Below are positions 7,698 to 27,384 of a DNA stretch of 64,000 nucleotides, piece after piece. Source of the stretch: Bacteroides congonensis (lineage in GTDB: Bacteria > Bacteroidota > Bacteroidia > Bacteroidales > Bacteroidaceae); the NCBI RefSeq assembly GCF_900130125.1, contig NZ_FQXY01000010.1, positions 310,001 through 374,000 of the forward strand. The letters run 5' to 3'. The translations under genes and the position numbers were made by a program. The notes below the pieces were generated by a model. The model made no database searches. It was not told the origin of the DNA and saw nothing but the letters and a program-made list of their open reading frames with translations. Position 1 is the first letter of the stretch; each line of letters begins with the position of its first letter.

Positions 7698-7717
7698 AAT
7701 TATATGTGTTAATTGAA

Positions 7718-8560
7718 TTAATTATTTCGTTTGATATCGCTTAAAGTACGAACAACAACCTCCCACTGGTTATTGTAACGTAACAAAATACCTGTAATAT
7801 TCACACTACCTTGTGGCATTACCTCCATTGAGAAGTTTGCGTAAGCACTAGTATAAAGGAACAAGTTACTTCCACTCTCTGTACCATCAGCATAAGTGAA
7901 ATAACGCTTTACGGAACCTTCATCGCCAGGAGCGTAGGTTGCCGTTCCGTCTGCTTCGGAAAGCTTTACGTTTTTAAAAGTAACCAATACCGGCGCTGCC
8001 TTCAAATCAATAGCAGCAAGCTCAGCAGGCGTACTAACCTCAATCGGTTTCAATTCCTCATAATACAACTTCGGTTCATTAATCAGACGAACATGCTGCT
8101 TCCATACATACTCGGGCATACGTCCAACTGAGTTATTATAAACAGTACCAATTTGCGCCTGCTTACGGTAACTACCTATCTGTAAACCCTTGCAATCGAT
8201 TACCACTTTCTGACCTACCGGACAAAATGCATACAAGCCGGTTGCATTAACGCCAATAACAATAGCACCTGTTTCGTCTGCCACGACCAACTTCTTGTAC
8301 AGATTACCACTCTCGTCATCACAGGTAATTACACCTTCAATACGGGTTTCACCTTCAATAGTAGTATAAGTATCTTTACTCGTATCAATAAAGTCATTAT
8401 ATTTTTCTTTCAACGCAGCGATTGAAATCGTGCGCCCTTCCGGAATAGAATTATTGCCATAGGCATTACCTGTTACCGGGTCATCATAGTTCTCGCAAGA
8501 AGTAAGAACTGTACCACATAACAGCAATCCGGTACATAATATAGATAGTAATTTCTTCAT
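7718..8560 (-). CDS. DUF5689-domain lipoprotein
   Basis: 280 residues from the Met at 8560 (MKKLLSILCTGLLLCG), preceded by a GGAAG-like ribosome-binding site; the frame is open to 8605 but that adds only a non-signal-like extension. The lipobox is VLTSC (Cys22), followed by ENYDD. The remainder fits the DUF5689 family: SIAALKEKY, then IEGVITCDDESGNLYKKLVVAD and IGVNATGLYAFCPVGQKV, a pattern like an OB-fold beta-barrel. The family is often found beside TonB receptors and secreted nucleases or phosphatases. It sits 47 bases after the TonB receptor gene and 20 before the DUF6359 gene, so co-transcription is likely. Its ligand is unknown. Confidence 0.78.
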   Translation of the reverse strand: MKKLLSILCTGLLLCGTVLTSCENYDDPVTGNAYGNNSIPEGRTISIAALKEKYNDFIDTSKDTYTTIEGETRIEGVITCDDESGNLYKKLVVADETGAIVIGVNATGLYAFCPVGQKVVIDCKGLQIGSYRKQAQIGTVYNNSVGRMPEYVWKQHVRLINEPKLYYEELKPIEVSTPAELAAIDLKAAPVLVTFKNVKLSEADGTATYAPGDEGSVKRYFTYADGTESGSNLFLYTSAYANFSMEVMPQGSVNITGILLRYNNQWEVVVRTLSDIKRNN

Positions 8561-11136: not shown

Positions 11137-11336
11137 AATTTAATTTATATTAATGTTAATTGGTCTTTCATTTTGCAATACAAATGAAATAAGCTGTTAC
11201 GCAAAATAACAAAGAATTTTATGAATAACAATGTTTTTTTCGAAAAAAGTCACTGCAATAGGCGGTTTTTCCGTTTTCTTTTTAGATATTTGTCATACGA
11301 ATGTCAAATTACCCACTTTTAAAATCAATTTTAAAG

Positions 11337-12362
11337 ATGAAAAAAAACTTAATGACTCTCGGCCTACTTGTCTTTTTTGTCCTAATGGCTTATGGACAAG
11401 AAAAGAAATATGCCCTCTACAGTGTAGCTTTCTACAACATGGAGAATTTATTCGACACAATCCATGATGAAGGTAAGAACGACTATGAGTATTTGCCCAA
11501 TGGAACGAACCAATGGAATTCGATGAAATATAAGGCAAAGCTGAAGAATATGTCGGAAATTTTAAGTAAACTTTCAACGGACAAGCTACCAATGGGACCT
11601 GCCATTATCGGTGTATCTGAAATCGAGAACTACAGAGTTTTGGAAGATATTCTGAAACAGCCTGCTTTAGCTGATAGAGATTATAAGTATATTCATTATG
11701 AGGGCGAAGACAAGCGTGGCGTAGATTGCGCATTCTTCTACAACCCGAAATTATTTGAACTCTCAAACAGCAAACTCGTTCCATATGTATATATAAATGA
11801 TACAGTACATAAAACACGCGGCTTCCTTATTGCCAGCGGTTATATAGCTGGAGAAAAAATGCATTTTATTGTCAACCATTGGCCTTCACGCGCTGCTGCG
11901 TCTGCTGCTCGCGAACGTGCGGGTGAGCAAGTCAGAGCAATAAAAGATTCCTTACTAAGAGAGGACTCTGCTGCAAAAGTGGTTATCATGGGAGACATGA
12001 ATGATGACCCGATGGACAAAAGTATGGCTGTGGCACTTGGAGCCAAGAGGAAACCGGCAGATGTTGGTCCGGGGGATTTATACAATCCATGGTGGGATAC
12101 ATTGAAAAAAGGCTACGGAACATTAATGTATAGAGGTAAATGGAACTTATTTGACCAAATTGTATTTACTGGAAATCTGTTAGGTAACGACCGTAGTTCA
12201 TTAAAATACTATAAACATGAAATTTTCCGTCGGGATTTCATGTTCCAAAAAGAAGGGAAATATAAAGGATATCCAAAACGAACGCAAGCAGGTGGTGTAT
12301 GGCTAAACGGATATAGCGATCACTTACCTACCATAATTTATTTAATTAAAGAAGTAAAATGA
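11337..12362 (+). CDS. Secreted endonuclease/exonuclease/phosphatase family nuclease
   Basis: 341 residues from the Met at 11337, giving a clean signal peptide (MKKNLMTLGLLVFFVLMAYG); the frame extends to 11301 without adding signal-like sequence. EEP motifs appear in order: FYNMENLFD near 32-40, GVSEIEN near 90, DKRGVDCAFFY, VNHWPSR, VIMGDMNDDP and GYSDHLPTIIY near the end. These supply the metal-binding Asn/Glu and the Asp-His catalytic residues of DNase I-like enzymes. It is probably periplasmic or secreted, hydrolysing nucleic acid phosphodiesters. Its stop overlaps the next start as ATGA (12359-12362), so translation of the two nucleases is coupled. Confidence 0.9.
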   Translation: MKKNLMTLGLLVFFVLMAYGQEKKYALYSVAFYNMENLFDTIHDEGKNDYEYLPNGTNQWNSMKYKAKLKNMSEILSKLSTDKLPMGPAIIGVSEIENYRVLEDILKQPALADRDYKYIHYEGEDKRGVDCAFFYNPKLFELSNSKLVPYVYINDTVHKTRGFLIASGYIAGEKMHFIVNHWPSRAAASAARERAGEQVRAIKDSLLREDSAAKVVIMGDMNDDPMDKSMAVALGAKRKPADVGPGDLYNPWWDTLKKGYGTLMYRGKWNLFDQIVFTGNLLGNDRSSLKYYKHEIFRRDFMFQKEGKYKGYPKRTQAGGVWLNGYSDHLPTIIYLIKEVK

Positions 12363-13546
12363 CAAAAGGATTATTTAAACTATTTATTCTGTTCATAGTT
12401 TGTAGCACAGTTGTATCTTGTAGCGAACAGAATATTCCGGACCTACCAGAAAATCCGGGTAATACCAATCAAGGTATCGCCTCCATTGACCAAACACAAA
12501 TCAATGCCAACGGTGGTGGATTTATCATTCGAGTAAAAGCAAGCGGAACGTGGGACGCTTCAAGTAGTGAGACATGGTGTACATTAAGTAGGACATCCGG
12601 TAGTGGAAACGGGGCGATCAGTGGCTACATAAAAGCAAATACCAGTGCAGAACGTAATGTAACTATTACAATAACTTCAGGAAAAGAGAAGGCAACATTC
12701 ACCATCAAGCAGTTGGCTGGCAACGGTTCTAATCCTGATCCAGCTCCAAACCCAGATCCAGACCCCGATCCGGATCCGGAAAGACCTTCGGGATATGCAG
12801 GAAGAATTGAGATTCCTGTATTAAAGGGAGGAAGTATGAATATATTTCATACATGGACTACCAAAGAAAATAACAAAGAGATAATTACTTATAGTTATGA
12901 ATATGACTGCACAAAAAAGCATGTACGCTGGGTAGCGTTTACTTTCGACAATTATACATGTCAGTCAAATGTAAAACGCTCTAATGCATGGAAAGAGGAC
13001 ACCAATATCCCTGCGCAATACAGAACATCCAAAAGCGACTATAACCCAGAGTATACAAGAGGACATATGGTTGGTTCCGGTGACAGAGTATATAGCAGAG
13101 CTGCAAATGAACAAACATTTTATTATTCTAATATGAGTCCGCAACAACAAGCCGGTTTCAATACTGGTGGCGGCGTTTGGAATAATGTAGAAGACCAAGT
13201 ACAAGCATGGGGACAAATCAACAATCCTGCAGACACTCTATATGTTGTCAAAGGTGGCACTATTGATAAAGAAGAAGACATACGCACTCGGACTAGCACA
13301 GGAGTAGCTGTTCCTAAATATTATTTTATAGCAGTCCTGTCGTATAAGAACAAACAATATAAAGGTATTGCATTCTATGTAGAACATACAAATAATAAGA
13401 CTAATCTTATAAAACGCTACTCAATGTCTATTAGAGAATTAGAGCAGAAAACCGGAATTAATTTCTTCCACAACCTTGAAGATGCAATTGAAAACAACGT
13501 AGAAATTAACTATAGTCCCAGTGATTGGAGTTGGCGAGAAGGTTAA
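12359..13546 (+). CDS. BACON-domain DNA/RNA non-specific endonuclease, lipoprotein
   Basis: 395 residues with lipobox VVSC (Cys21). Residues about 40-122 form a BACON domain (SGTWDASSSETWCTLSRTSG, then ATFTIKQLAG), joined by an Asp-Pro repeat linker to a NUC-type nuclease domain. The catalytic motif reads TRGHMVGSGDR: the His base is kept but Thr replaces the first Asp of DRGH, unlike the paralogue at 4833-5687. FYYSNMSPQQQ and VEDQVQAW keep the Asn and Glu ligands. BACON domains often serve as surface spacers or glycan-binding modules. It is coupled to the EEP nuclease by a 4-base overlap and ends at a strong bidirectional hairpin. It is probably active on extracellular nucleic acid; the Thr substitution leaves activity uncertain. 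Confidence 0.88.
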   Translation: MTKGLFKLFILFIVCSTVVSCSEQNIPDLPENPGNTNQGIASIDQTQINANGGGFIIRVKASGTWDASSSETWCTLSRTSGSGNGAISGYIKANTSAERNVTITITSGKEKATFTIKQLAGNGSNPDPAPNPDPDPDPDPERPSGYAGRIEIPVLKGGSMNIFHTWTTKENNKEIITYSYEYDCTKKHVRWVAFTFDNYTCQSNVKRSNAWKEDTNIPAQYRTSKSDYNPEYTRGHMVGSGDRVYSRAANEQTFYYSNMSPQQQAGFNTGGGVWNNVEDQVQAWGQINNPADTLYVVKGGTIDKEEDIRTRTSTGVAVPKYYFIAVLSYKNKQYKGIAFYVEHTNNKTNLIKRYSMSIRELEQKTGINFFHNLEDAIENNVEINYSPSDWSWREG

Positions 13547-13556
13547 CCCCAACATA

Positions 13557-13605
13557 TTGAAATATAATAAAAGCCAGCGGAATGCTGGCTTTTATTATAT
13601 TTCAA
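13557..13605. terminator. Bidirectional terminator, 22-bp perfect stem
   Basis: Arms 13557-13578 and 13584-13605 are perfectly complementary with a GGAAT loop (plus strand). The outer stem is A/T-rich and the inner part is GCCAGC/GCTGGC. It serves the convergent nuclease and fimbrial operons. Confidence 0.85.
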
Positions 13606-13621
13606 TTGTCATTTCAATCTA

Positions 13622-16600
13622 TCAGAACCGATAAGAAGTCCCCACCGAAAATGCAGCATGTACAGGAGTCAAATCTCCACCTGCAAAAATATCTTTAGTA
13701 TACATACGCAGGCGAGGTTCCGCAAAGACTCCGAATCCTTTAATTAATTTATAATAACAATGCAAGCCGCCTTCCAAACCAAAGGTTGTCTTATTAGGTT
13801 CTGAACCAAAAGCCAGTACCGGACCTGCCAAAATCTCTACTCCAAATTTGCGTTCAGGATTATAACCACCCATAAAATGGGTGATGTCAAAGAGGTAATC
13901 GGCCGAAACACTAATCAATTTACGCGCATCTGCACCGTTTCTACCCGGCAAAGCTGTATAATCCAAACCAACCCGTGCTCCGGAACATGGAAAGAACTGA
14001 CGTCCGCCCGATACACCTATCAATACTCCAAGTCCCGTACCCGAATCATACTTCACACGATGAACGGGCATATTGGCGCCTACATTCCACGAAGCAAAGT
14101 AGTAAGGCTCAAATTCTTTTCTAAGCGCTGCCAACTCCTTCAACGTCCTGCCACCGGCGCGACGGAATTCCAGTCCTATCTGAACACTCATTACATTGTC
14201 CGCTGCCGGAGTACGCGGACCTACATAATTATTTTCTACGTTTATGTCTCTATAAGAATAAGGTACACGAGAGAAGCGAGGTTCTATAAACAATGCCATA
14301 GCGTCAGATACGTAATATTTGCATTGTAAGCCGGCTGTTATACCTGCATATGCGGCTCCCGCAGCACTAACTTTAATCTTCTCGCTCTGTCTCCGGACTT
14401 TTCCCAGTTCCAAACCAAGCATCGGGACAATCCCCCATCGCCGCTCTTTATCATACTTCCAGAAAGAAAGGATATCAAACATACTCTCCACCCGTATTCC
14501 ACCTTGCATCGTCCGCTTGTCGGAAAGGATTCCATATTCACTCAAAGCCTGCCCCCAACTGCTGATTCCGGCAAAACCAGAGAAACGCAGTCCCCAAAAG
14601 GGCAACAGCCACTTACCGACTGATATACTCATTGTCGGACCTGCCGAAGCTAAAGCATCCATAGAACGATTTGAGCCAACCAACGACTGGAAGCCGACTC
14701 CGCCACTAATAAATGTATTTCCCCAGATTGTACCGTCACCGAATCCACTCTCCGTCAAATTCTTACGTAGAAGCGGATTAAACCGATAAGATGTTCCTAG
14801 AGCAAAAGATAGTTGCAAAGGAGTCCCTTTCGCCCCTCCCCGGGAATTCATATAGCGTTTCGTATAAAGGCGTAGCTTAGACTCTGCAAAAATATCAAAC
14901 TGTTCGCCCAGTCTCCAATAAGGACGTACACCACCTTCTCCTCCTACATATGTTTTACCGGGTTCAAAGCAACGGGTGATGACCGGCCCGCCAAAGACTT
15001 CCGTACCGAACTTGCGTTCCGGGTCGTAGCCTATCACCCAATTAGATATATCAAACATATAATCCAAAGAAAGGCTCGTAAAAGTATAACGGTCAGTCTT
15101 GTCATCTGCCGTACGGGTAGCCGCATTGTTAAAATCAAGCCCTAAACGCACTCCGGAAAGTGAACTGAACTGACGTCCGACTGCAGCTCCGATTATAAAT
15201 CCCGGACGTCGTGAAGTAGGACGGTTCAATTGCTGCGGCATTGTCATGCCGACAGCATAGGAAGTATAATAATAAGGTGTAAAATCACCTCTCAGTTTTG
15301 CCAACTGTTGCCATTGCGAACGAGTAGGGCGACGTAATTCAACACCTACACTTACATTCATCAATTTATCCATGAAAGAATATTCATTCACTTTTCCGGA
15401 AATTGTTTTCTCCGTAAATGTATAAGGTACGAATGACATACGGGGCTCTACAAAGAAAGCGAGATTCTCCGTCGGGTAGTACTTGAATTGAAGTCCACCA
15501 GTCATTCCGGTGTACGATTTGGATACAAGTTCGCGTTCATCCTGCTTTTTCATCATTCCAAGTTCAACACCAAACATCGGGACAATTCCCCATTTCATCG
15601 AGCGCACATCTTTCTTGAAAAAGGCGAAAGGATTCAGCATTACTTCAGCCCGTCCACCTGCATACAAGGTCATTCTGTCAATTCCGGTCTTCTGATTTGC
15701 CTTCCACACATCATAAGAGCCGAATGCAGATAGGCGGAAACCAAATAAATCAAGAAACCACTTACCTGCCGCCACACTAAAGATAGGGCCTGTAGAGCCT
15801 AACAGTCCTTGCTCTCTGGCCAATGAGGAATTCTGTGCCTGCAAACCCATCCCCGCACTGATAAATGTATTATCCAGAAAGTTCTCATCCCCGGCTTCCG
15901 TACTTCCACGCGGAGTAAAAGTTCCTAAGCGATAATTCATACCCACCCGGGCGTTGAAACCGATATCATAGCCATGCGAGTTATTGTTTCCGGAAATATC
16001 AATTCCATCTGTATAAAAAGAGATTCCCGGCTCCATAAACACATCCAGACGGGTCCCGGTAGATATTTTCATTTGCAATCCCAGATGAAAATCGGCTGCT
16101 TTCTGTTTCTCTCCAGCCAAAGAAGCGAGATGGACTCCAAGTCCCTCTACCGTAGAGAGTTCTAGCATACGATAAGGATTATAGCCGGCAAGGGCAGTAC
16201 TCAGACTGAATATATGATCTACGCCGAAAGTATAGTTAGTCCATTTCTCATTATCACTCTGCCGGTTAGCAGACTGCCAGTTCCCATACAACCGTACCCC
16301 GTTCTTGGGAGAAAAGAATTTTGATACGGACAATCCGATTTCCGGTCCGCCGGAAAGATTCATCCCACCTTGGGGAATAATACGGTTGTATCCGCCCCAG
16401 AAACTTACAAAGAAGTTGTCAAGGAACTTTTTATTGACAAACTCCCTGCCTTGAGGTTGATAACGTTTCTGCATCGAATATTTCAGAGCGTTGTACTTCA
16501 CACGATAGGCTGTATCCGCCTGACTTCTTCGTTGCATTGCGGAATCCTGGGCAGCAGCGGCATCTCGCATTTTTGCAATGGAATCCTGTTGCTGAGCCAT

Positions 16601-16660
16601 TACACTTCCGGCAAGCATTCCACAACAAACATACGTCAATATATATCTTTTCATCACCAT
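13622..16660 (-). CDS. Outer-membrane protein of five tandem barrel-like modules, last gene of fimbrial operon
   Basis: 1012 residues with a signal peptide ending SVMAQ (start at 16660 or the Met two codons on). About 60 residues of charged linker are followed by five modules of about 180-210 residues in an A-B-A-B-A pattern. A modules contain (D/G)Y(N/D)PxR followed by a GP or EGLG strand (residues about 62-245, 470-645 and 850-1012). B modules start NTFIS(A/G)GxG and contain (R/K)WGIVPM(F/L)G(V/L)ELG (about 255-465 and 655-845). Each carries amphipathic strands and xxFxEPRxxxY-type segments resembling small Omp barrels. The chain ends GTSYRF with an aromatic terminus. I do not recognise a named family for the whole protein. 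From its position it may anchor or assemble the fimbriae; that is inference. Confidence 0.75.
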   Translation of the reverse strand: MVMKRYILTYVCCGMLAGSVMAQQQDSIAKMRDAAAAQDSAMQRRSQADTAYRVKYNALKYSMQKRYQPQGREFVNKKFLDNFFVSFWGGYNRIIPQGGMNLSGGPEIGLSVSKFFSPKNGVRLYGNWQSANRQSDNEKWTNYTFGVDHIFSLSTALAGYNPYRMLELSTVEGLGVHLASLAGEKQKAADFHLGLQMKISTGTRLDVFMEPGISFYTDGIDISGNNNSHGYDIGFNARVGMNYRLGTFTPRGSTEAGDENFLDNTFISAGMGLQAQNSSLAREQGLLGSTGPIFSVAAGKWFLDLFGFRLSAFGSYDVWKANQKTGIDRMTLYAGGRAEVMLNPFAFFKKDVRSMKWGIVPMFGVELGMMKKQDERELVSKSYTGMTGGLQFKYYPTENLAFFVEPRMSFVPYTFTEKTISGKVNEYSFMDKLMNVSVGVELRRPTRSQWQQLAKLRGDFTPYYYTSYAVGMTMPQQLNRPTSRRPGFIIGAAVGRQFSSLSGVRLGLDFNNAATRTADDKTDRYTFTSLSLDYMFDISNWVIGYDPERKFGTEVFGGPVITRCFEPGKTYVGGEGGVRPYWRLGEQFDIFAESKLRLYTKRYMNSRGGAKGTPLQLSFALGTSYRFNPLLRKNLTESGFGDGTIWGNTFISGGVGFQSLVGSNRSMDALASAGPTMSISVGKWLLPFWGLRFSGFAGISSWGQALSEYGILSDKRTMQGGIRVESMFDILSFWKYDKERRWGIVPMLGLELGKVRRQSEKIKVSAAGAAYAGITAGLQCKYYVSDAMALFIEPRFSRVPYSYRDINVENNYVGPRTPAADNVMSVQIGLEFRRAGGRTLKELAALRKEFEPYYFASWNVGANMPVHRVKYDSGTGLGVLIGVSGGRQFFPCSGARVGLDYTALPGRNGADARKLISVSADYLFDITHFMGGYNPERKFGVEILAGPVLAFGSEPNKTTFGLEGGLHCYYKLIKGFGVFAEPRLRMYTKDIFAGGDLTPVHAAFSVGTSYRF

Positions 16661-16676
16661 TATTTATCTATTTAAG

Positions 16677-19016
16677 CTACTCATTTCCTCCTGTAGCCAT
16701 TTCGTCTTCATAACCCATCTTGGCATATTTGAAACAGTCTTCACTAATATCCCCATCCCATTCGGCTATCGAGATATAGCTGCTGTCTTTTTTGAAACAA
16801 TTCGTCAGAGCCTCTTCTGCCTGCATGGCAAAAAAGTCACCTTTCCGGCAATAAAGGACTGCTTTCAGATAGAGTGTTTTCGGATCGTCCGCAGGTAAAT
16901 CTTCCAATGCTTTCTCCGCCTTTTCATTCCATGCATGTGTTTTCATCGCCAGACACATCACTACATTATTGATAGGTGAACTGTTTCTGACCAGTTCGAA
17001 TGTTTCGAGACGCCGGGCTATTTCCGCATCATTCAATCCGCTGGTTACCTTATAATATCCACCCAAACAGAAAGCAAATGCTTTTATCTTTTTGTTCTTT
17101 TCACTATCAGGCAATAACTGAGCCAAACGGCTGGCTTCGGAGAAGTCTCCCTTTTTAAGATACATAGCCAACTGATTGGCTACTACTTCTTCCACATTAT
17201 CTACACCAATCACTCGTCCGTCAAAGGTACGTTCCACGTTGCAGCCTCTCACGGAAAAGTCAACCAATGGCCTTAGGACTTCCGTATCGACCGTATCACG
17301 TTTCAAATAAGATACTGCCAGATTATTCGCAGCCAACACCCACGGCTTTCCGTTAGTCAATTCTTTAGAATAGTTGTATGCACGACGGTAAAGTTCCTCC
17401 AACTCTTTGGGGTCTTTCACCATGTTAAACAAGTGCCAATATTCATATAAGGCGAAATTCTTCTTTCCCGAACGATAATCAGGATCATTCTGATAACGAT
17501 TCAATATTTCTTCTTTTGTCAGCGCACGATAAATCTCGGCTGTATATTCACATTTCATTGAACGCAACTTAGGAAGATGTGCCTTAATGATCGTATTATA
17601 ATAAGGCAGGGCAGCCACTTGCCGATACTGCAAGTCCTGGTTCTTCGGATATTTTTCGACAATCTCGCGGATGGCGGCAGCTTCATCAGGCAGTGTGTCC
17701 TGTTCCAATAAATCTGCAACTTCCAACCAGGTAGCTACTCGTGAGTCATTCGGTGTATAAGTGTATAGCCGCTGCATAGTACGAGCAGGAATAACTGAAT
17801 AAACCAACGAACGGGCATATGCCAGACGACGCTGGGATAAAGCCATATTAGACGCATAAGAACCTTCAGGGGATGATACACTATATAAATGGAGTTCCTT
17901 CAAAGTAGAACTTTCTCCATTCACTACTTCCAACAGTTTCGCTTTCAGTTTGTCCAGTTGTATTTCATTGTTAGGATCTTCAGGATCCAATTCTGCTTTT
18001 CCTAACAAGAAACTTAGAGAAATATCTTCCACACCGGTCCGACGTTCCACTTTCGGTTTCTCTTCGTATTTTTTAGGATCCAGTTCATATTGGTCAAGCG
18101 AATATTCCAGAAAGCGCAACGGACGTCTCGGGCTACGTGTGGAAAGCTCCAACAGGCGTTCATAATAAGGACGTGTATAGTCCTCCATCTGCATGAGGGC
18201 TAATACCTGGAAATTATCCTGTGCATTGGAAAGTTTGATTGTGTCATTCCACATATAGGAAGCCTTCTCCGCCGAAAGCGGCTCATTCTCAACTATAAAA
18301 TTAAACAGTGAATCATGTTGTATGTCATATCCCATCCTTCTTTCTTGCGTCAGTGCATACTGAACGCCATCATACACGCGTGGCAACCGATACATTTCCA
18401 CTTTCTTTCCTTTACTGTTATTTATTACATATGGTTGAACGATCATCCGGGCATTATCTTTGCCAATCATCTGAGGAACTGCGACTTTTGCACCGTTCAG
18501 GATAATCATATCACCATACTGGTCAGGTGTTTCGGGCATAGACGTGACCTCTGTGCGTTGTCCTACTACCGTCACCTGACTAATCATGTGTCCCATGTCT
18601 ACATATGTAGTAATCTCACGCCGTCCATTGATCGCTTCAAACACGGCAGGCGCCGTACTTACTTTGATAACCAACGATCCGGTTTCCGGCAAAGTAATCT
18701 GATAAGCTCCCGTAGCGTCGGGCACTTCATACATGGCAGAAAGGGTAAGGCTGATATTGTCCTGATTCAAAGCGGCTTCCATATCTTTCCCTTCCTGAAC
18801 GGTATTGAAGTAGTAAATCTTTATATCACCAATAGAAGAGATATCAAACGGGACTGGTTTTCTTTTCTTCTCTGATGCTTCTTTATCCAACACACGTCCC
18901 ATTACCAACTTGGGTGCCTGCGCATTCATCTGAATGCAAGCAGCCAAATAACAGGTCAAAAGAAAAGCTATTCTCATAGCTCTGTTTATTCTTATCAAAC
19001 TTACTTTCATATCCAC
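16677..19016 (-). CDS. OmpA-like domain plus TPR-like repeats, fimbrial-operon outer-membrane protein
   Basis: 779 residues. A signal peptide is present from any of three Mets (residues 1, 3 or 14), ending IQMNAQ. The N-terminal region contains a carboxypeptidase-regulatory-like beta fold (VDMGHMISQVTVVG near 145). The middle holds an OmpA/MotB-like segment (ISLSFLLGKAELDPEDP, then LHLYSVSSPEGSYASNMALS) near 335-420; the arrangement of the last part is like the peptidoglycan-binding OmpA pattern SPEG-N-x-LSxxRA. The C-terminal 250 residues look alpha-helical and TPR-like (NNLAVSYLKRD, then VANQLAMYLKKGDFSEASRLA). Similar OmpA proteins accompany DUF3575 and fimbrillin genes in Bacteroides. It probably links fimbria assembly to peptidoglycan. 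It is 16 bases upstream of the five-module gene. Confidence 0.7.
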   Translation of the reverse strand: MDMKVSLIRINRAMRIAFLLTCYLAACIQMNAQAPKLVMGRVLDKEASEKKRKPVPFDISSIGDIKIYYFNTVQEGKDMEAALNQDNISLTLSAMYEVPDATGAYQITLPETGSLVIKVSTAPAVFEAINGRREITTYVDMGHMISQVTVVGQRTEVTSMPETPDQYGDMIILNGAKVAVPQMIGKDNARMIVQPYVINNSKGKKVEMYRLPRVYDGVQYALTQERRMGYDIQHDSLFNFIVENEPLSAEKASYMWNDTIKLSNAQDNFQVLALMQMEDYTRPYYERLLELSTRSPRRPLRFLEYSLDQYELDPKKYEEKPKVERRTGVEDISLSFLLGKAELDPEDPNNEIQLDKLKAKLLEVVNGESSTLKELHLYSVSSPEGSYASNMALSQRRLAYARSLVYSVIPARTMQRLYTYTPNDSRVATWLEVADLLEQDTLPDEAAAIREIVEKYPKNQDLQYRQVAALPYYNTIIKAHLPKLRSMKCEYTAEIYRALTKEEILNRYQNDPDYRSGKKNFALYEYWHLFNMVKDPKELEELYRRAYNYSKELTNGKPWVLAANNLAVSYLKRDTVDTEVLRPLVDFSVRGCNVERTFDGRVIGVDNVEEVVANQLAMYLKKGDFSEASRLAQLLPDSEKNKKIKAFAFCLGGYYKVTSGLNDAEIARRLETFELVRNSSPINNVVMCLAMKTHAWNEKAEKALEDLPADDPKTLYLKAVLYCRKGDFFAMQAEEALTNCFKKDSSYISIAEWDGDISEDCFKYAKMGYEDEMATGGNE

Positions 19017-19027
19017 AATCTTACTTT

Positions 19028-19594
19028 CTACCTAATAATATAAGAAATAGAAACTGCTAGTTTGGCCGGAAACAGCTTATATCCATGCGCGTTCGTCTTC
19101 CCCGGATTATTGATTGCATAATCCTCAAAGTTATCATTCTCAAAGTATTGTTGGTGCCAGAAATGGACAGCTCCGAAACCTGCCGAGAACTCGAGGTTAA
19201 AACGTTTTCCCAATGCCATCGAATATCCCATCGTTATACCGATTCCTACTGCATCTCCTTCGTAAATATGTTTTCCCCAATGAATGTCATAACTTGCGCC
19301 TAAAGCAGATATACCTATATATTCACGTACCATAGGACGACCATTGAACCAATAGCGATATTCGGGCTGCACTCCAATGATTTTGATGTCTGTTCCATAA
19401 GGTTTATATCCCCCGTAAACACTTAAATCAATACTGGAACGTTCACCTACTACCAGTTCGCATCCTAAATTGGGCACTCCTGCCAATAGTGACAAGCCGT
19501 TGGTTTTTACTGCCACTTGCTGGGCACACAAGCTCTGCGCTCCTGCAAGAAGCAGAAAAACAAAGGAGAATAGATATTTTACGATTCGTGTCAT
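19028..19594 (-). CDS. DUF3575 outer-membrane protein
   Basis: 188 residues with a signal peptide ending SLCAQ. The sequence VAVKTNGLSLLAGVPNLGCELVVG and the short tyrosine-rich strands (GVQPEYRYWFNGRP, then YIGISALGASYDIHWG) match DUF3575, a small beta-barrel-like family almost always found in fimbrillin operons. It lies 4 bases after the last pilin gene and 11 before the OmpA-like gene. It is a second, shorter DUF3575 protein than the one at the head of the operon. The function is unknown; a role in pilus anchoring at the outer membrane is plausible. Confidence 0.82.
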   Translation of the reverse strand: MTRIVKYLFSFVFLLLAGAQSLCAQQVAVKTNGLSLLAGVPNLGCELVVGERSSIDLSVYGGYKPYGTDIKIIGVQPEYRYWFNGRPMVREYIGISALGASYDIHWGKHIYEGDAVGIGITMGYSMALGKRFNLEFSAGFGAVHFWHQQYFENDNFEDYAINNPGKTNAHGYKLFPAKLAVSISYIIR

Positions 19595-19598
19595 GTCG

Positions 19599-20660
19599 TT
19601 ATTGTAACTTTACATTTTCGTCTACGGTATTACCTCCTGTCCAAGAATCCACATTAGCCGGTCCGGAAAGCGTGGCATCTTTGGGCAAGAAATTAATGCG
19701 CATTAATGTAGTCTTACCTTTCTTTATTGAGATATCATAACCATAATACTTGTAATCATAGATAGTGTACTCACGCAAATTGTTACCACCATCTTTTACC
19801 TGACAGGTGATTTTCTGTATCAAGGTTTGTTCAGGCGGGAACATAAACTTTGCGACAGACTCTCCCGGAGTATTGTATGTAATTCCGGCATTATTTGTCG
19901 AATGAAGGCAAATCAAATCCTTAGGAGAAAAAGAAAGTGTACCATCTGTCAAAGCCATCCAACCGGATTCACCTGTATTGCAATACACTGTTACTGACTG
20001 GATTCGATATCCAGCATCACATACTTGCTTACTGGTAGAATAGAAACTGAAATCCAAACGTCCGAATGCATGCTGGAAATTCAACATTATCGGATTTGTA
20101 CCCACTTCTGAATACCATGTCGGTGTTTGACCGGTGAACATATAGTCTTTCGTTTCGGACATATCACTCGGAGTAAGTTTCCAAGGTATAGCCCATTGTG
20201 CTACTCTGTTCACTTCACGCCATTCCGCTTCTTCCGTATAAGGGTAATAGCCATACATCATCAAGCCCGCATTACTCGTATTAGGGAAAGTTGCCAATTT
20301 CTCCGTCTGTAACGTTTCATAACCTGGCACATACGTGTAACAAGCATTAAATAAATTTGCCTGGAAATCACTCTCATTTTTTTTATTGAACAAGTCACAG
20401 TCGCTATTATGATTACCCTGTATGGCAGGAATACCAAAAACGCCCAACTGTGCATTCGGTTCAAAAGCAGTTATCGGTGCACGAGTACCCGGCCCTGTTA
20501 CCTCAACCACAACAGAAGCGAAAATGTTGGAGCTGAAAGAAACTACAGCTCCACCATTTACATTAGTATTATTTCCTGATTGAGGCGTATTATCGTCATC
20601 CTTACTACATGATGCCAATAAAAACGACAACGCTACGCCTGCTATCATCCATTTATTCAT
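19599..20660 (-). CDS. Fimbrillin-family lipoprotein, fourth pilin-like gene
   Basis: 353 residues with lipobox LLASC (Cys18) followed by SKDDD. A TR dipeptide at Arg60 (GPGTRAPI) fits the arginine site at which Mfa/Fim pilins are cleaved during maturation. The body is a two-domain beta fold with LNFQHAFGRLDFSFYS, the mid-protein FxHxLxRLxF strand shared by all four pilins here. The C-terminus is NVDSWTGGNTVDENVK, related to the WxxGGxI ending of its neighbours, which probably acts as the donor strand in fibre assembly. The last pilin of the set is often a tip or accessory subunit. Five bases separate it from the preceding gene. Confidence 0.82.
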   Translation of the reverse strand: MNKWMIAGVALSFLLASCSKDDDNTPQSGNNTNVNGGAVVSFSSNIFASVVVEVTGPGTRAPITAFEPNAQLGVFGIPAIQGNHNSDCDLFNKKNESDFQANLFNACYTYVPGYETLQTEKLATFPNTSNAGLMMYGYYPYTEEAEWREVNRVAQWAIPWKLTPSDMSETKDYMFTGQTPTWYSEVGTNPIMLNFQHAFGRLDFSFYSTSKQVCDAGYRIQSVTVYCNTGESGWMALTDGTLSFSPKDLICLHSTNNAGITYNTPGESVAKFMFPPEQTLIQKITCQVKDGGNNLREYTIYDYKYYGYDISIKKGKTTLMRINFLPKDATLSGPANVDSWTGGNTVDENVKLQ

Positions 20661-20665
20661 AAGAA

Positions 20666-21739
20666 TTAGTTTACTTCCTGATCAATAGTCTGGTCTGCAT
20701 CCTTCCATTCTTCCAATGTAGCATTGATATCAACTACACGCAAACCGTAAATTGTCAACTTAACCTTATAAGCTTTACCTGCTTCAAACGGAGAAATCTG
20801 ACCTTCCGCATTTTTGTAAGTGATGGTAACTTCATTGGTCTGTGTTCTTTCCTGACCATTTACCATTGCAGACAAAGTAACATTAAGCACATAAGACCCG
20901 GATGCTGTAGGCAATAACATTACATTTCCTGCATCTTTTTCAGTTTTCGTTTCCAAAGCTACATTTGTTGTATACTTATTATCACCAAAATATGCAGGAA
21001 TTTCCTCATTAGCGCCTGTACCAGTCAGAATTCCTTTATTGACACCGGCAACAGCCAAAGAAGCTGTTTTCTGAGAAGTCACAGTTATATTCTTAATGCT
21101 CACAGGCCATACTTTACCATTTTCAAGCAAACCTTCATCTCCACCTATTCCAAAAAGCTGTAATTGGGTCAGCAAGTGCTTGAACTTTAATTCAGGTGTT
21201 ACCCCGCCTTTACGGAAATAACGGGCATTATAGCCGGAGTAAGTTTTTCCGTCAGCAGAATCCACATCTTCAGCTATTGCTTCGCCCCAAAGAATATCTT
21301 TGTTACCAGTAACTTCATAAGTAACGGTAGCATTATTGGAAGATAAGGATGGGTTAGTCGGAATCGGACTACAAGCATAGAATGAGAAATTCACATCGCT
21401 ATTCAAAGGATAAAAATAGACATCATTGTCACCTCCCAGTTTGACCTTTCCGTCCGTTGCAACTTTTCCATCCACATAATTAGCCGGTGAAAACAAGTTA
21501 CCGGAAGCTGTATTCCAGCCGGAGCCTGCATTGTCTAATCCCCACACACGAATCGGAGTATCCTGCCATTTACTAACAACGGCTCTTGTTTGAGTAATAG
21601 AAATGTTAGAACCGGCATTCAATGAAACTGCTCCGTCAAAAGGAATATTAACCTCTTCTTTTTGATCTACCACGTCATTATTTGAGCAACTTGCCAATAT
21701 TGCAGCCGCTCCCAGTATAAATAGATATTTTTTATTCAT
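20666..21739 (-). CDS. Fimbrillin-family lipoprotein, third pilin-like gene
   Basis: 357 residues with lipobox ILASC (Cys18). A TR dipeptide at Arg52 (TQTRAVV) is the likely maturation cleavage site. ELKFKHLLTQLQLFG is the conserved inter-domain strand, and GVNKGILTGTG matches the GxxKGI loop of its neighbour at 21761-22984. The C-terminus TLEEWKDADQTIDQEVN is a divergent form of the tail motif, with Trp kept and the Gly-Gly lost. Known Mfa1/FimA-type pilins are lipid-anchored precursors cleaved at Arg after reaching the surface and then polymerised by strand exchange. No adhesin domain was seen. Confidence 0.84.
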   Translation of the reverse strand: MNKKYLFILGAAAILASCSNNDVVDQKEEVNIPFDGAVSLNAGSNISITQTRAVVSKWQDTPIRVWGLDNAGSGWNTASGNLFSPANYVDGKVATDGKVKLGGDNDVYFYPLNSDVNFSFYACSPIPTNPSLSSNNATVTYEVTGNKDILWGEAIAEDVDSADGKTYSGYNARYFRKGGVTPELKFKHLLTQLQLFGIGGDEGLLENGKVWPVSIKNITVTSQKTASLAVAGVNKGILTGTGANEEIPAYFGDNKYTTNVALETKTEKDAGNVMLLPTASGSYVLNVTLSAMVNGQERTQTNEVTITYKNAEGQISPFEAGKAYKVKLTIYGLRVVDINATLEEWKDADQTIDQEVN

Positions 21740-21760
21740 ATTCAGATATTTAGTTTATTA

Positions 21761-22984
21761 TTATTCTGTAAATGTATCATCAGGATTGATATTGATATCA
21801 CCACCATCTATCCATTCACCAAGTTCTGCTTTAAGCTCAATCTTCTTGATGCCATAAACAGCAATTGTGACATTATAAGAAGTAGATGCAGCGAAAGTAG
21901 TAATACCGGCAGCAGCACCATCTTTAGTTACATCACTAGCTTTCAAAGTCAACTTGTATGTTTCTGTCTGCTGTTCAACAGGCACCGTATTACCTGATTC
22001 ATCAATTTCCTGTTTAACAACAACTTCAATATCATAGGTTTCAACACCCGGTTCAACTAACAATGCTTCACCTACAGCAGTCGGAGTTGCCGCATCAGCT
22101 GCCGAAGCATAGTACGTTTTATCTGTTAACGGCTGCATTACATTACCATTTCTTTCCTGAAGAGACAATAAAGAGCCTTCATCATTTCCATCCCATTTGA
22201 TACCCTTATTTGCATCTGCAGCATATACAAATACCAACTTTCCGGTAGTTTTTGATTTTACTTTAATAGATTGTACATACACATTCTCAGGTTTAGAACT
22301 TCCCATACCTTTGATGTTGAATACAAGACGAGTCAACAAGTGTTCAAACTTCATTGAGGGCTGAACTTCTCTACGAGCTGTATAAGAACTGTATGCCTTA
22401 TTTATATCTTCAGCATCAAGTTTGGCCTTATCTGCTTCAGAAAGTTCAGCTTTTGCAATCATCAAATCCTGAGAACCATTAATCACAAAAGATTTATACA
22501 GTACGTTTGTACCATTCATAGCCTCAGATCTTGCTTCTCCAGTTACAGCATCATCTCCATAATAACCAAAGAAATCATAAGCGCCACTACGTGGGAAATA
22601 ACGAGATTCGTCATTTTTCCATTTAACACCTGAAATCTTATCACCCGTTCCAACTGTTCCCTCTTCATCACGCAAAGCATAAGTATTCAGGTCTGCAATT
22701 CTATCGCTCATTGTTATGCCTGTCTTAGAATCCTTCTGGCAAGCATAGATATACAATTTTTGCCCACTCCATGTATTAGAAATAGTAGCACCATCACCTC
22801 CGATAGTACCGGCACTTCTGGTAGCATTAACAGTTACAGAAGGAGCGGCGGCAGAAAGTAAGATAGCATCTGCGCTAGGTGTCAAATCTACAGGTTCATT
22901 TCCTGGTACACCCTCATTTTCGCTCTGCGAACAAGATGCCAACACTCCGGCTGCCACCATTGCATAAAGAAAAAATCGTTTCAT
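21761..22984 (-). CDS. Fimbrillin-family lipoprotein, second pilin-like gene
   Basis: 407 residues with lipobox VLASC (Cys18). A TR dipeptide at Arg56 (NATRSAG) marks the likely cleavage site. Typical elements are YFPRSGAYDFFGYYGDD, SMKFEHLLTRLVFNIKG and ANKGIKWDG, all found in fimbrillin-family proteins. The C-terminus ends ELGEWIDGGDININPDD, the WxxGGDI(N) tail shared with the pilin upstream and a probable donor strand. It is 21 bases before the third pilin and 45 after the first. It has the fullest motif set together with the gene at 23030, so these two are the best candidates for the main shaft pilin. Confidence 0.86.
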   Translation of the reverse strand: MKRFFLYAMVAAGVLASCSQSENEGVPGNEPVDLTPSADAILLSAAAPSVTVNATRSAGTIGGDGATISNTWSGQKLYIYACQKDSKTGITMSDRIADLNTYALRDEEGTVGTGDKISGVKWKNDESRYFPRSGAYDFFGYYGDDAVTGEARSEAMNGTNVLYKSFVINGSQDLMIAKAELSEADKAKLDAEDINKAYSSYTARREVQPSMKFEHLLTRLVFNIKGMGSSKPENVYVQSIKVKSKTTGKLVFVYAADANKGIKWDGNDEGSLLSLQERNGNVMQPLTDKTYYASAADAATPTAVGEALLVEPGVETYDIEVVVKQEIDESGNTVPVEQQTETYKLTLKASDVTKDGAAAGITTFAASTSYNVTIAVYGIKKIELKAELGEWIDGGDININPDDTFTE

Positions 22985-23029
22985 AAATCACACAAATTTA
23001 AATTAATAATAATATGTAAGTTTCACTTT

Positions 23030-24388
23030 TTATTCATCCTCATATTTATCGTCCGGACTAATGTTTATATCTCCCCCATTCGTCCAAACTCCACTTTCGA
23101 CAGTAGATTTAATATCTGACAAGCTATTAATTGTCAAGTAGATAGTATACGCTTTCCCTGCACTAAAAATTCCATTATCATTTTTATTTTCCAGTTCTAC
23201 ATCAACTTCCGTATATAACGCCCCTTCTTGTCCCTGTTCCGCACTCAAAGTAATTTTTGCCCGATAAGAATCAGCAGGTGCCACCAATAAACTTGTACCA
23301 CTATCACGGTCGTTATCTTTGTCTTTATCAAGAACATAGCGATAATGTTTTTTATCATCATCCGTCACATTCTCATAGATAGGACAATCAGCTACCAAAC
23401 ACCATCCGGCACTTCCAACGAGTTCCCCGTTTTTCTTTCTTAGTTCAAAAGAAGTATAATCCTCGTTATCAAAAGATATCCCCCTCTTGGGCTTTGTCAT
23501 ATCATCCGCATCAGGGTCACTTACCGCTACTGTAAACCGTCCTTTATATTTTGAATTCAACTCGATCTTTTTAACTGTCAAAGTCTGATCCAACGAAGGT
23601 ATGTCACTACCATTCTGGTTTGAACCGCCATCTGGCCTACAAACCACAAACCGGAGAAGAACCAAATGATGTTCAAACTGAAATACCGGATTTAGTCCAT
23701 GATTGGCAGAATATGCACTAAATGCCCGCCCCAGAATTTTATCCCCATATGGATTATCTTTGTATTTATCTTTCTGGGTCTCTGGATCTGCCATAGAAGA
23801 CATGAAGTCTCTGCGTCCATCCAGTTCGACATCATAATAAATATGATCTTTCTCACGATGGCACTCACCCATCCAATCATCCAAATAATAAGCAAAGAAG
23901 TTATAAGGCTGATTCGTATTCTTCATATTATAATAGATCTCCTGAGAATTCTCATCCGGATAGAAAAGCATTAAATTGGAATCTTCTTTCTTTACGCCTA
24001 CTTCTTTCCCGTGCTCAGAAACCTGTACATTTGCTCCTCCGGTTCTATGCCCATCCAACAAGCAGAAATCCTGGTTTGTCTCACTCCAAGGTTTGGACAA
24101 ATCCGTTTGCGGATCCTTATTAAAAGCATATACATAGAATTTTACATTGTCCCAGAAACTCGCATCATTGCCATTATTGACCTCACCGCTTCCGCGTGTC
24201 AATATCTCAAAATCAGACATACCTAAACTCAATACAATAGGAATCGGCTCCACTAAGGGAGCATCGTCATCTGTCGTCAGTTCTCCTACATATGTATCTC
24301 CGGAACAATTAAACAACAGTATCGAACAAAATCCGATCAATAAACAGTGCTTAATCTTCATATATATTATCTGCTCTTTTTTCATCAT
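23030..24388 (-). CDS. Fimbrillin-family lipoprotein, first pilin-like gene
   Basis: 452 residues from 24388, or 443 from the Met at 24361, which gives a tidier signal peptide (MKIKHCLLIGFCSILLFNC). The lipobox is LLFNC. A TR dipeptide (EILTRGSG) lies 56 residues from that second Met. NYNMKNTNQPYNFFAYYLDD-type segments, VFQFEHHLVLLRFVV and KRGISFDNEDY are the pilin hallmarks, and the chain ends VWTNGGDINISPDD, the same tail as the next gene. It is the largest of the four pilins. The longer reading starts 5 bases after the upstream DUF5119-like gene. Confidence 0.83.
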   Translation of the reverse strand: MMKKEQIIYMKIKHCLLIGFCSILLFNCSGDTYVGELTTDDDAPLVEPIPIVLSLGMSDFEILTRGSGEVNNGNDASFWDNVKFYVYAFNKDPQTDLSKPWSETNQDFCLLDGHRTGGANVQVSEHGKEVGVKKEDSNLMLFYPDENSQEIYYNMKNTNQPYNFFAYYLDDWMGECHREKDHIYYDVELDGRRDFMSSMADPETQKDKYKDNPYGDKILGRAFSAYSANHGLNPVFQFEHHLVLLRFVVCRPDGGSNQNGSDIPSLDQTLTVKKIELNSKYKGRFTVAVSDPDADDMTKPKRGISFDNEDYTSFELRKKNGELVGSAGWCLVADCPIYENVTDDDKKHYRYVLDKDKDNDRDSGTSLLVAPADSYRAKITLSAEQGQEGALYTEVDVELENKNDNGIFSAGKAYTIYLTINSLSDIKSTVESGVWTNGGDINISPDDKYEDE

Positions 24389-24392
24389 TCCA

Positions 24393-25745
24393 TTATATGT
24401 CTACATGAATATCACCTACAACTTCCCATCCACATACACCGTCACTACCCATTTCCGGGTTTAATCCTACAATACGGAAAGGCGTCTCAATCTTCAACGC
24501 AGCCCGGTCTTTCACTTTCTTGCGCTCATTCACCTGTCCTGTTTCCACCGTAATCTCCTGTTCTTTGATTTGTTTTGACAGATTGGACTTCGCATGAATA
24601 GCCCGAACATCTGTAGGAGTTTTCACATACAAAACGATACAGCAAACGCCCGGCCCTGTTATTGTGTAACTATCCACACCGCCTATCAATCCGAATACTT
24701 CTAAAGACGCTTTGCATGAAAGAGTTACAACAGGCTTTTCTCCTTCAGCAGATTGGGAAACTTCTTTTTCAATCACTTTTACAATCACCCTTTTCAACTC
24801 TGCAATATTCAAAATACCTGTAGATAAAGAGACTTCCGGCGCAATACCAGCCATTTCTACATAAATATCTTGAATATCATCCTCTGCTAACTGATTATTC
24901 TTCTCATCTGCTGCTAATTGAACTGTGAACTGGATATCAACATGTTGGGTAAGAGATGTAAAATCAAAAGGCTGTATATAATTCTTCCCGGCATCCAATT
25001 CTAAATAGTCACGACGAGCTACCAGCAACCTACGGCCAGCATCCTTTACATAGCCGATTCCAGGATTTAAATCCGCCCATTTCCGATTGTCTACCAGTTC
25101 TTTACTTACATCTTTCTGTACTACTTCCTTATGGCGCATCTTAACTTGCCTGACCGGAATAGCTTCATCGGCTTTAAACTCATCTAAACCAACCAGCGAT
25201 ACTCTCTTGTCTTCCTCTTCTACCTGTATAACCTTACCATCATTATCTTTCAAATCATTTCCTTCACCGTCTTTTTTCGTTACTTTTACCTTCGGATATT
25301 TCGGATCAGTAAAAGCCATCATAAAGTATTCTCCACCAGGAAGTTTGATATCCGGTTGATATTCATCTGTCGGTTCTGTACCGCCGTCAGGAGTCTCAGT
25401 TCCGCTATCGTCACGAGTCACAGAATCATCTCCGGGAGTTTCAGAACTGTCACCGCCAGGCGTAGTTCCCGGTTCTTCATCTTTACTCTTTTCGACCAAA
25501 AATCTCCCGTCTTTATCCGTTTGATAAACCATATGTCGTGTATTCAAAATACGGGTTGCCACGAAATACAAACGTTCAGGTGTTTCGGCGGCTGACAAGT
25601 TTAAATCACTCCAATTATATGTGACAGAAAAGCCATCCACCACATGAGGATGCGTTCCCTCATCACATAAATCCACCTTCGTACAACCGACCAGCAATAA
25701 CGACGCAAATATGACCTGATATATAATAGTAGTTGCTTTCATCAT
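24393..25745 (-). CDS. DUF5119-like fimbrial accessory lipoprotein
   Basis: 450 residues with lipobox LLLVGC (Cys21). The segment VDLCDEGTHPHVVDGFSVTYNWSD after the lipid anchor resembles DUF5119/FimB-type proteins, which accompany DUF3575 in fimbrillin operons and probably anchor or terminate the fibre. A low-complexity insert of Asp, Gly, Thr and Ser (residues about 87-130) interrupts the first domain. The rest is predicted beta-sandwich (YFMMAFTDP, then VDIQFTVQLAADEKNN and ISTGILNIAELKRV-like strands). It is coupled to the upstream DUF3575 gene by a 4-base ATGA overlap (25742-25745). The Cys-lined VCCIVLY strand near the end is unusual. Confidence 0.7.
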   Translation of the reverse strand: MMKATTIIYQVIFASLLLVGCTKVDLCDEGTHPHVVDGFSVTYNWSDLNLSAAETPERLYFVATRILNTRHMVYQTDKDGRFLVEKSKDEEPGTTPGGDSSETPGDDSVTRDDSGTETPDGGTEPTDEYQPDIKLPGGEYFMMAFTDPKYPKVKVTKKDGEGNDLKDNDGKVIQVEEEDKRVSLVGLDEFKADEAIPVRQVKMRHKEVVQKDVSKELVDNRKWADLNPGIGYVKDAGRRLLVARRDYLELDAGKNYIQPFDFTSLTQHVDIQFTVQLAADEKNNQLAEDDIQDIYVEMAGIAPEVSLSTGILNIAELKRVIVKVIEKEVSQSAEGEKPVVTLSCKASLEVFGLIGGVDSYTITGPGVCCIVLYVKTPTDVRAIHAKSNLSKQIKEQEITVETGQVNERKKVKDRAALKIETPFRIVGLNPEMGSDGVCGWEVVGDIHVDI

Positions 25746-27145
25746 TCTTCACCTCCCTCATTAGTAATTTCCGGATTATCCTCCCGAATTCCTGAAGATT
25801 GTGGAGTCACAGCCTGCGGGTCGGACGACTCCGACTCCGTAGACTGCTTCTCCTGAACAGGTTGCTGTTCATCTGGGGATTGTTCTTTTATCTCTGGTGT
25901 TTCCACACCTTCTTCCTGTTTTTTATCTTTTTTCTTTTCTTTCGAACGTTTCTTTTCCTCTTTGGCAACATTTTCCAAAGAATCTTTCATTAGCTTAGCT
26001 TGCTCCTTCTCCAATCTCTGAATTTGTTCCAAAGAGTCTTTCATTAATTTAGCCTGTTCTTTATCAAGTTTGCGAACTTGCTCCAAGGAGTCCTTCATCA
26101 ATTTCTCCTGCTTCTTCAGTGAATCCTTTATTTGTGATAAAGAGTCCTTAGCCAGATTCAAAGAATCTTTCTGTAACTTTTTCAACTCCCTGATCTTTGT
26201 CCTGGCTTCACTTATCGAGTCGCGTCTCAGTTGTTTCTGCCGCTTGGCTTCCGTACGGGCATTGATTTTATCATAATCAATCAGCTTGTATTTATTCTTA
26301 ACAGAAGTCGAGAAACGATAGACAAACGCTACACGCAAGTCACTAACGACCGGGAATGGAACCAGATGTCCTCCCTTACTCTTTTCAGGTAAACGGGGAT
26401 AACAATTACTTTCCTCGTCATGTCGGTAAGCATCATATTTAGTATAGACTAACCCTACGCTGGCTCCCAATTCCAGATCCACAAAATTGTCACGATAGCC
26501 ATATAGAGGAATGCTGAAACCACCCGATACACCAAGCCCTAGAGCAGAACCCTGCATACCACGTTTGCCGAACTTAAAATTATAGTTAGCATAATCGGCA
26601 TATACACCCCAATAATAGGCACGCCAATAACGGGGGTGGAAACGCTTAATCGTAAACACCTCTTCTTTTAAACGTTGAAAGAAACTGGCTGAATCCAAAT
26701 GGTGGAAGTTGCGCTGAGTTGTACGGAAGTAATTCCGAAATTCCAGGCGGGTATCAAACAGATTATATACTATACTAGGCTTGTAATTCTGTGAAGTACT
26801 CCAATTACCTTTTATACCAAGGCTTAATGTGTAATGTTTATAAGGAGAACCGAACAGATCAAATTCGGCAGTAATATTAGGTAATAGCACAAGCCAGTCG
26901 ACCGCATTCGTCTTGAATGCCAGTCGAGACTTGAAAGGCATTATTGAATCCTTGTTCTCTACTGCCTTTTTACGCATAGTCGGAGATTGAGCATAACACT
27001 CCACTCCTAAGAAGAAAAATAAAGAAAATAGAATACAAGACAGTATTCTTATCCTACAATTTTTCCCCTTCTTTACGTACTTGTCTACAAATAACACTTG
27101 CTTCCCTTGTACAAGGAAAGCATTATGTTCGCCCTCATTTCCCAT
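25742..27145 (-). CDS. DUF3575 protein with long repetitive coiled-coil tail, first gene of the fimbrial operon
   Basis: 467 residues. A long basic N-region precedes the hydrophobic signal (ILSCILFSLFFFLGVECYAQ); no internal Met gives a shorter signal peptide. Residues about 70-290 form the DUF3575 domain (SRLAFKTNAVDWLVLLPNIT, then RYWRAYYWGVYADYANYNFKF). The last 170 residues are highly charged: KDSL repeats with an 18-residue period (KLMKDSLEQ, L(D/E)KEQA), then a Lys/Glu run and a Glu/Pro/Gln/Ser tail. The repeats predict a coiled coil that could span the periplasm or bind the peptidoglycan layer. The gene follows a strong promoter and overlaps the next gene by 4 bases. Confidence 0.78.
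   Translation of the reverse strand: MGNEGEHNAFLVQGKQVLFVDKYVKKGKNCRIRILSCILFSLFFFLGVECYAQSPTMRKKAVENKDSIMPFKSRLAFKTNAVDWLVLLPNITAEFDLFGSPYKHYTLSLGIKGNWSTSQNYKPSIVYNLFDTRLEFRNYFRTTQRNFHHLDSASFFQRLKEEVFTIKRFHPRYWRAYYWGVYADYANYNFKFGKRGMQGSALGLGVSGGFSIPLYGYRDNFVDLELGASVGLVYTKYDAYRHDEESNCYPRLPEKSKGGHLVPFPVVSDLRVAFVYRFSTSVKNKYKLIDYDKINARTEAKRQKQLRRDSISEARTKIRELKKLQKDSLNLAKDSLSQIKDSLKKQEKLMKDSLEQVRKLDKEQAKLMKDSLEQIQRLEKEQAKLMKDSLENVAKEEKKRSKEKKKDKKQEEGVETPEIKEQSPDEQQPVQEKQSTESESSDPQAVTPQSSGIREDNPEITNEGGEE
25974..26108. repeat. 54-bp tandem repeats inside the DUF3575 gene
   Basis: Two full units (25974-26027 and 26028-26081) and a partial third from 26082 repeat with a 54-base period, encoding KLMKDSLEQ(V/I)x(K/R)L(D/E)KEQA on the minus strand. 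The units differ mostly at silent positions, so they are not freshly duplicated. Confidence 0.8.
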
Positions 27146-27215
27146 AATTCGCGTCTGCGCCCTTATTTTTGTTTATTTGTCCGCATTGTTCCCTAATACA
27201 ATGCTACTTTGACCG

Positions 27216-27247
27216 CAAATGTATGGCAAATGCCGTAATATAACAAA
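27216..27247 (-). promoter_or_regulatory. Promoter of the fimbrial operon
   Basis: On the minus strand TACATTTG (27216-27223) fits TAnnTTTG exactly and TTTG (27244-27247) lies 20 bases upstream. The transcript would begin near 27209, followed by a 7-bp hairpin (27183-27189 with 27198-27204) in a leader of about 65 bases. No inverted repeats flank the promoter. Confidence 0.65.
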
Positions 27248-27384
27248 TAAAATCGAAGATTTAATATAAAGAATTTTAAAACACAAGTCCAAACTTCCTT
27301 ATTTTAGTACTATTTACCCCAAAAAAGTTATAATATCAAGAATGAAAATGAGTTGGCAGAAAAAATAGAATAGCAATATTTTTC

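Follow-up and report, generated by a model that had tools for sequence, protein, structure and literature searches.

To our knowledge, every outer-membrane protein of solved structure comprises a single barrel per chain. A 2021 PNAS study by Solan et al. is said to have found that combinations with 8-strand barrels prevail and that they arise by lineage-specific amplification. According to the available text of PMC8592465, which cites an analysis to this effect, many outer-membrane families may have multiple barrels; the view of the initial annotation that a chain of barrels would be rare is thus only partly right, such chains having been predicted before. More than one barrel per outer-membrane chain is also proposed, in the same available text, for YjbH/GfcD, in which two larger barrels, with 12-13 strands, would flank a middle domain; those predicted here are small, homologous and five in number. 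The OmpA-family proteins of Bacteroidota (an N-terminal barrel plus PF00691; two of them, L046 and L047, are encoded in the source genome) share with our protein a homologous 8-strand module; they differ from it in that five barrels are predicted here in a row with no PF00691, weak OmpA matches occurring in the family of a neighbouring gene.

Type V pili are described in the accessible part of PMC12632263 as built of tip, stalk and anchor pilins. The type V (Mfa/FimA) loci of Bacteroidales resemble the one analysed here in uniting genes for Mfa-like fimbrillins and DUF3575 proteins in one operon, whereas that portion of the paper names tip, stalk and anchor as pilin parts and no multi-barrel gene. 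In B. thetaiotaomicron, DUF3868 and DUF3575 genes (BT4233-36) lie near the Mfa1-type gene BT4227, as stated in the available text of PMC10434189. A literature search by title and abstract start returned no description of the tandem-barrel gene family. The protein shares several predicted barrels per chain with the multi-barrel proteins of Solan et al. 2021 and differs from them in that 2-8 barrels occur at one three-gene locus, sometimes within a type V pilus operon. Multi-barrel outer-membrane proteins as such had already been predicted, and it is this variable count at a conserved three-gene locus that would be new.

The five modules and their order

In the window (the whole 64,000-nucleotide stretch of Bacteroides congonensis DNA analysed here), a family profile identified five homologous modules of 164-193 residues in the 1012-residue product of the last gene of an operon (Table 1), separated by linkers of 12-14 residues; the E-values are inflated, since the profile was trained on the modules of the window and related sequences. 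The initial annotation had described five tandem modules of two alternating types with the shared motifs NTFIS(A/G)GxG (B) and GY(N/D)PxR (A); we located NTFIS(A/G)G at residues 264 and 648 and GY(N/D)PxR at residues 159, 544 and 932. A comparison of all ten module pairs (300 shuffles per pair) likewise bears out the homology, with modules 2/4 (B1/B2; 78/182 identical, score 334, best shuffle 71, z > 50) and 3/5 (A2/A3; 72/162 identical, score 335, best shuffle 59, z > 50) being closest, at 43-44% identity. Module 1 (A1) is roughly equidistant from B1 (51/167 identical, score 93) and from A2 (34/134, score 107) and A3 (35/139, score 85). In the one-to-one comparison, the pairs B1-A2 and A2-B2 (two of ten) did not score above their best shuffle, and self-blastp of the 1012-residue protein gave the diagonal only; the comparisons were made with excised modules.

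Table 1. Features of the multi-barrel gene and its operon, in window positions.
Feature	Residues	Positions	Strand	Basis or remark
Poly-barrel gene	1-1012	13622..16660	-	1012 codons, ATG start; final gene of the operon
Putative N-terminal signal peptide	~1-22	16595..16660	-	Judged by eye
Module 1 (A1; probably its own subtype)	78-247	15920..16429	-	Family profile, tree
Module 2 (B1)	260-446	15323..15883	-	Family profile, tree
Module 3 (A2)	459-629	14774..15286	-	Family profile, tree
Module 4 (B2)	644-836	14153..14731	-	Family profile, tree
Module 5 (A3)	849-1012	13625..14116	-	Family profile; predicted complete 8-strand barrel
Partner gene	779 aa	16677..19016	-	Family: weak OmpA and TPR matches, shared SPEG/SPDG stretch
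DUF3575 gene	188 aa	19028..19594	-	Pfam
Mfa-like fimbrillin		19599..20660	-	Pfam
Mfa-like fimbrillin		20666..21739	-	Pfam
Mfa-like fimbrillin		21761..22984	-	Pfam
Probable Mfa-like fimbrillin		23030..24388	-	19.5 bits, under the Pfam cut-off of 27
Putative anchor-type lipoprotein	450 aa	24393..25745	-	No Pfam match at E 0.1
DUF3575 protein		25742..27145	-	Long charged repetitive tail; first gene of the operon
Promoter-like site		27216..27247	-	Bacteroides consensus; window total not above chance
Terminator-like hairpin		13559..13603	called on +	Between the operon end and convergent nuclease genes

In a tree of 95 modules (bootstrap unsettled, so the support values quoted here are rough), modules 2 and 4 group with the second modules of three-module relatives (100/93); modules 3 and 5 form a sister pair (100/96) beside the third modules of those relatives. 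Module 1 clusters with the first modules of these relatives (98/72, on a branch that was not starred), and for this reason the order C-B-A-B-A fits better than the A-B-A-B-A originally proposed: B at positions 2 and 4 and A at 3 and 5 stand, while module 1 looks like a subtype of its own. We also considered whether the window protein descends from an ancestor with three modules whose last pair was duplicated once and cleanly; the tree agrees with this only in part, modules 3 and 5 being sisters and modules 2 and 4 not. A single late duplication explains the former better than the latter, since module 2 is nearer to the second modules of the relatives (100/82) than to module 4. In the eight-module proteins, the sister pairs 4/6 (100/93) and 5/7 (100/99) fit a duplication of pairs in a separate lineage. 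Duplication, probably of adjacent pairs, has changed the module number.

This apparent multiplication in pairs, clean in the eight-module proteins and less so in the window, speaks for a different architecture, in which neighbouring modules would merge into larger barrels (B+A with 16 strands, or one 40-strand ring) forming a conduit that exports pilins or other cargo. The C-terminal ends of the modules, ELRR and EFRR in the B modules as against YRF in modules 3 and 5 (YRL in module 1), leave room for such a B+A folding unit, and the position of the gene in a pilin operon would suit a conduit.

The family PF13505 (OMP_b-brl) scored 30.1 bits summed over the chain (cut-off 28.7), with no single stretch passing alone; 2/26 isolated family modules matched it at E 0.01, and module 1 reached 20.7 bits, below the cut-off. 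Pfam searches at E 0.1 gave no match in the 1012-residue protein to PF00691, to a fimbrillin (Mfa-like) domain or, with regard to the chaperone-usher system, to any usher family. The whole protein had no match in a PDB sequence search at E 1, and the module profile retrieved two weak Burkholderia porin matches (E 0.0048 and 0.0059).

Relatives and the recurrence of the three-gene locus

A module search matched 26/119 Bacteroidales genomes at E 1e-10, mostly with one match per frame of ~370-430 codons. PF00691 was found in 6/7 single-module proteins scanned (L046, L047, L051, L052, L055, L056), and L048 has TPR matches instead. Relatives of ~360-400 aa had been candidates for two-module proteins; Pfam and the profile show one module plus OmpA. 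The module counts observed were 2 (L050), 3 (L038-L040, L085), 4 (L043-L045), 5 (L042, L078-L082), 6 (L083, L084) and 8 (L087, L088), with linkers of median 12 residues (range 1-18). The source genome itself has, besides the window gene and the two single-module genes, one four-module gene, which belongs to a second trio (L045 6946-11949, G000:C1) with no same-strand fimbrillin detected. Other arrangements include a single module joined to a DUF3575-like stretch, with DUF5119 and two Mfa-like genes behind it (L086 7601-8854), a free-standing single module of 205 aa, too short for a trailing OmpA domain, at a locus shared with a three-module gene (L085 8630-9247), and a 1024-codon frame with two module matches (G140:C12:21296-22792). 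Three scans of viral contigs found no relatives, and a scan of genome contigs found two loci.

The gene upstream of the multi-barrel gene defines a partner family, found in 18/247 genomes drawn from the order at E 1e-20 (strong matches in 12) and in 29/119 genomes from the genus at E 1e-30. Our census of partner loci comprised 51 rows, reduced to 49 loci by dropping L035 (the same record as L099) and one of two L115 rows: 41 strong (partner E < 1e-90) and 8 weak (L089-L096), many of them from related species and hence not independent. One strong locus (G012:C32) and six weak ones (E 1e-50 to 1e-46) stand outside it. A gene with at least two modules lies within 600 bases downstream of the partner in 38/41 strong loci. 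The fair figure is 26/29, counted over the strong loci found through the partner alone, because the partner model came from ten module-bearing loci and 12/41 loci were first found through the module gene. All 41 strong loci have a same-strand DUF3575 gene no more than 6 kb away, and a module gene was found in 0/8 weak ones. The trio of DUF3575, partner and multi-barrel gene is recurrent in Bacteroidales.

Over the 40 strong loci other than the split L115, no module was matched in two (L105 and L114) and a single one in one (L086); two modules were found in 2, three in 7, four in 8, five in 16, six in 2 and eight in 2, counting L112 as three modules (one split) and L111, with a truncated first module, as five. 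At L115 (7619-10943), possibly a decaying copy, a short module gene accompanies a partner gene broken into two frames.

Fimbrillins were detected in 11/41 strong loci (the window and ten further) and none on the same strand in 30/41; the former count is a lower bound, as the stretches reach up to 19 kb or the contig end, and includes matches by construction in the window, L038 and L039, from which the 12 fimbrillin queries were drawn. A role in pili therefore cannot be general. The 30 loci, together with the OmpA domain of most single-module relatives, are what one would cite for a plain outer-membrane stabiliser, with OmpA-like barrels and their partner stiffening the envelope in some growth condition and being tied to pili by shared transcription only. 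This reading, to which we attach a low probability, has to accommodate the window trio, which stands directly behind four fimbrillin-type genes with gaps of 4-45 bases, as well as the ten further strong loci with fimbrillins.

Predicted fold and the putative inner partner

Module 5, the one of the five that was modelled, was submitted alone to AlphaFold2 with an alignment of 15 rows (modules of the window, L035 and L036), yielding a predicted complete 8-strand barrel (pLDDT 84.2, pTM 0.79). The four best Foldseek matches of the model in the PDB were OmpA entries (E 3.5e-8 to 4.9e-7). Its alignment with the OmpA membrane domain, 1bxw (Z 17.8, rmsd 2.4, 151/164 residues), suggests that the strands close into a barrel; four chains outrank 1bxw, all within 1 Z unit, and one of these is a model of OmpA itself. 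The full chain, modelled with two close orthologues as the alignment, gave a pLDDT of 23.8, and that model was not used.

That each module would form its own barrel, five in the chain, is supported by this model and by the existence of single-module relatives, most of them with an OmpA domain. Of the two options in the initial annotation, separate barrels are thus favoured and a large barrel made jointly by A and B is not. Merged 16- or 40-strand barrels appear quite improbable to us: a single module is predicted to be complete in itself, with its OmpA match spanning nearly its full length; single modules exist on their own; linkers with a median of 12 residues (range 1-18) join the modules; and odd counts are common (3 or 5 modules in 23/40 intact strong loci). 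With five homologous modules and one of them modelled as a barrel, the 1012-residue protein is a predicted multi-barrel outer-membrane protein.

To compare the two faces of the predicted barrel, 26 family modules were mapped on the module 5 model, assuming the OmpA orientation with both ends periplasmic. Mean conservation was 1.94 bits in the periplasmic turns, 1.80 in the strands and 1.13 in the outer loops (turns vs loops, Mann-Whitney p 3.5e-5, the columns not being independent); T3, a two-residue periplasmic turn, is weakly conserved (0.95 bits). The GY(N/D)PxR motif occupies the turn that joins strand 4 to strand 5. The poor conservation of the outer loops, and the longer insertions that B modules carry at outer-loop positions, could also be read as the mark of a multivalent surface protein, in which the barrels merely hold variable loops binding glycans, host or bacteria and the inner partners are incidental; lectin domains in some type V pili, mentioned in the available text of PMC12632263, indicate that fimbrial loci do serve binding. 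We find this rather doubtful, since module 5 as modelled has short outer loops (4-12 residues), it is the inner turns that are conserved, and the trio also stands among unrelated genes where no fimbrillins are detected.

The partner in the window has no Pfam OmpA match at E 0.1. Among ten members of its family, OmpA was matched weakly in 4/10 (best E 0.0054), TPR_1 in 4/10 and a carboxypeptidase-regulatory-like domain in 5/10. L048 (377-2842) is a fusion of one barrel module with a part resembling the partner (hhalign probability 96.1, E 3.1e-9); the evidence from this fusion is moderate, as a search of L048 with the partner model gave no match and the profile-profile comparison did. The genome of L048 belongs to another family of the order, and four further genomes contain frames of 820-846 codons with a single module.

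The operon and a proposed role

The operon consists of nine same-strand genes (27145 to 13622, gaps of -4 to 45 bases) in the order DUF3575, putative lipoprotein, four Mfa-like genes, DUF3575, OmpA/TPR-like partner and multi-barrel gene. On the basis of strand and tight spacing with the fimbrillin genes, the multi-barrel gene appears to be a member of a type V pilus operon. Position and a lipobox seen by eye suggest that the 450-residue protein may act as the anchor lipoprotein. Promoter-like sites numbered 3 in the window vs 2.02 expected, and no promoter-flipping inverted repeat was reported upstream (27000-27450), where there is one palindrome only. In genome G009, window positions 13849-27297 are unmatched and the flanks match (L041 ~7531-8199), a 225-base piece of the 3' end of the multi-barrel gene persisting at 95% identity; the pattern is consistent with the operon having been lost as a whole. 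Convergent to the operon are two tandem nuclease genes with a 4-base overlap (11301-13546; Exo_endo_phos_3, and Endonuclease_NS with a BACON domain).

Our main reading, to which we assign a probability of about one half, is that the five-barrel chain serves as an outer-membrane scaffold docking the partner and, in fimbrial operons, as a pilus platform. After export, the protein would insert into the outer membrane as a set of five small, closed barrels of the 8-strand OmpA type (40 strands altogether if the other four modules fold like module 5), with the linkers in the periplasm. Packed side by side, the barrels may form a membrane-embedded row. Its conserved inner turns, including the one with GY(N/D)PxR, would dock the OmpA/TPR-like partner, while the outer loops vary; we derive this inward orientation from the conservation of the periplasmic turns, the conserved partner and the L048 fusion. 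The partner may reach peptidoglycan, and the DUF3575 protein may be the third member. Where the operon is fimbrial, type V pili would be organised or anchored by this platform, and differing module numbers would give platforms of different size. A bolder version, namely that a peptidoglycan-tied platform sized by its tandem barrels (2-8 per chain, up to 64 strands) is the missing base or export platform for type V pilins, seems unlikely at present.

A conserved locus encoding 2-8 barrels would offer a natural series for asking how the insertion machinery handles several barrels in one chain. The same series bears on the mutual effects of neighbouring barrels and on whether type V pili may have a dedicated base in the outer membrane.
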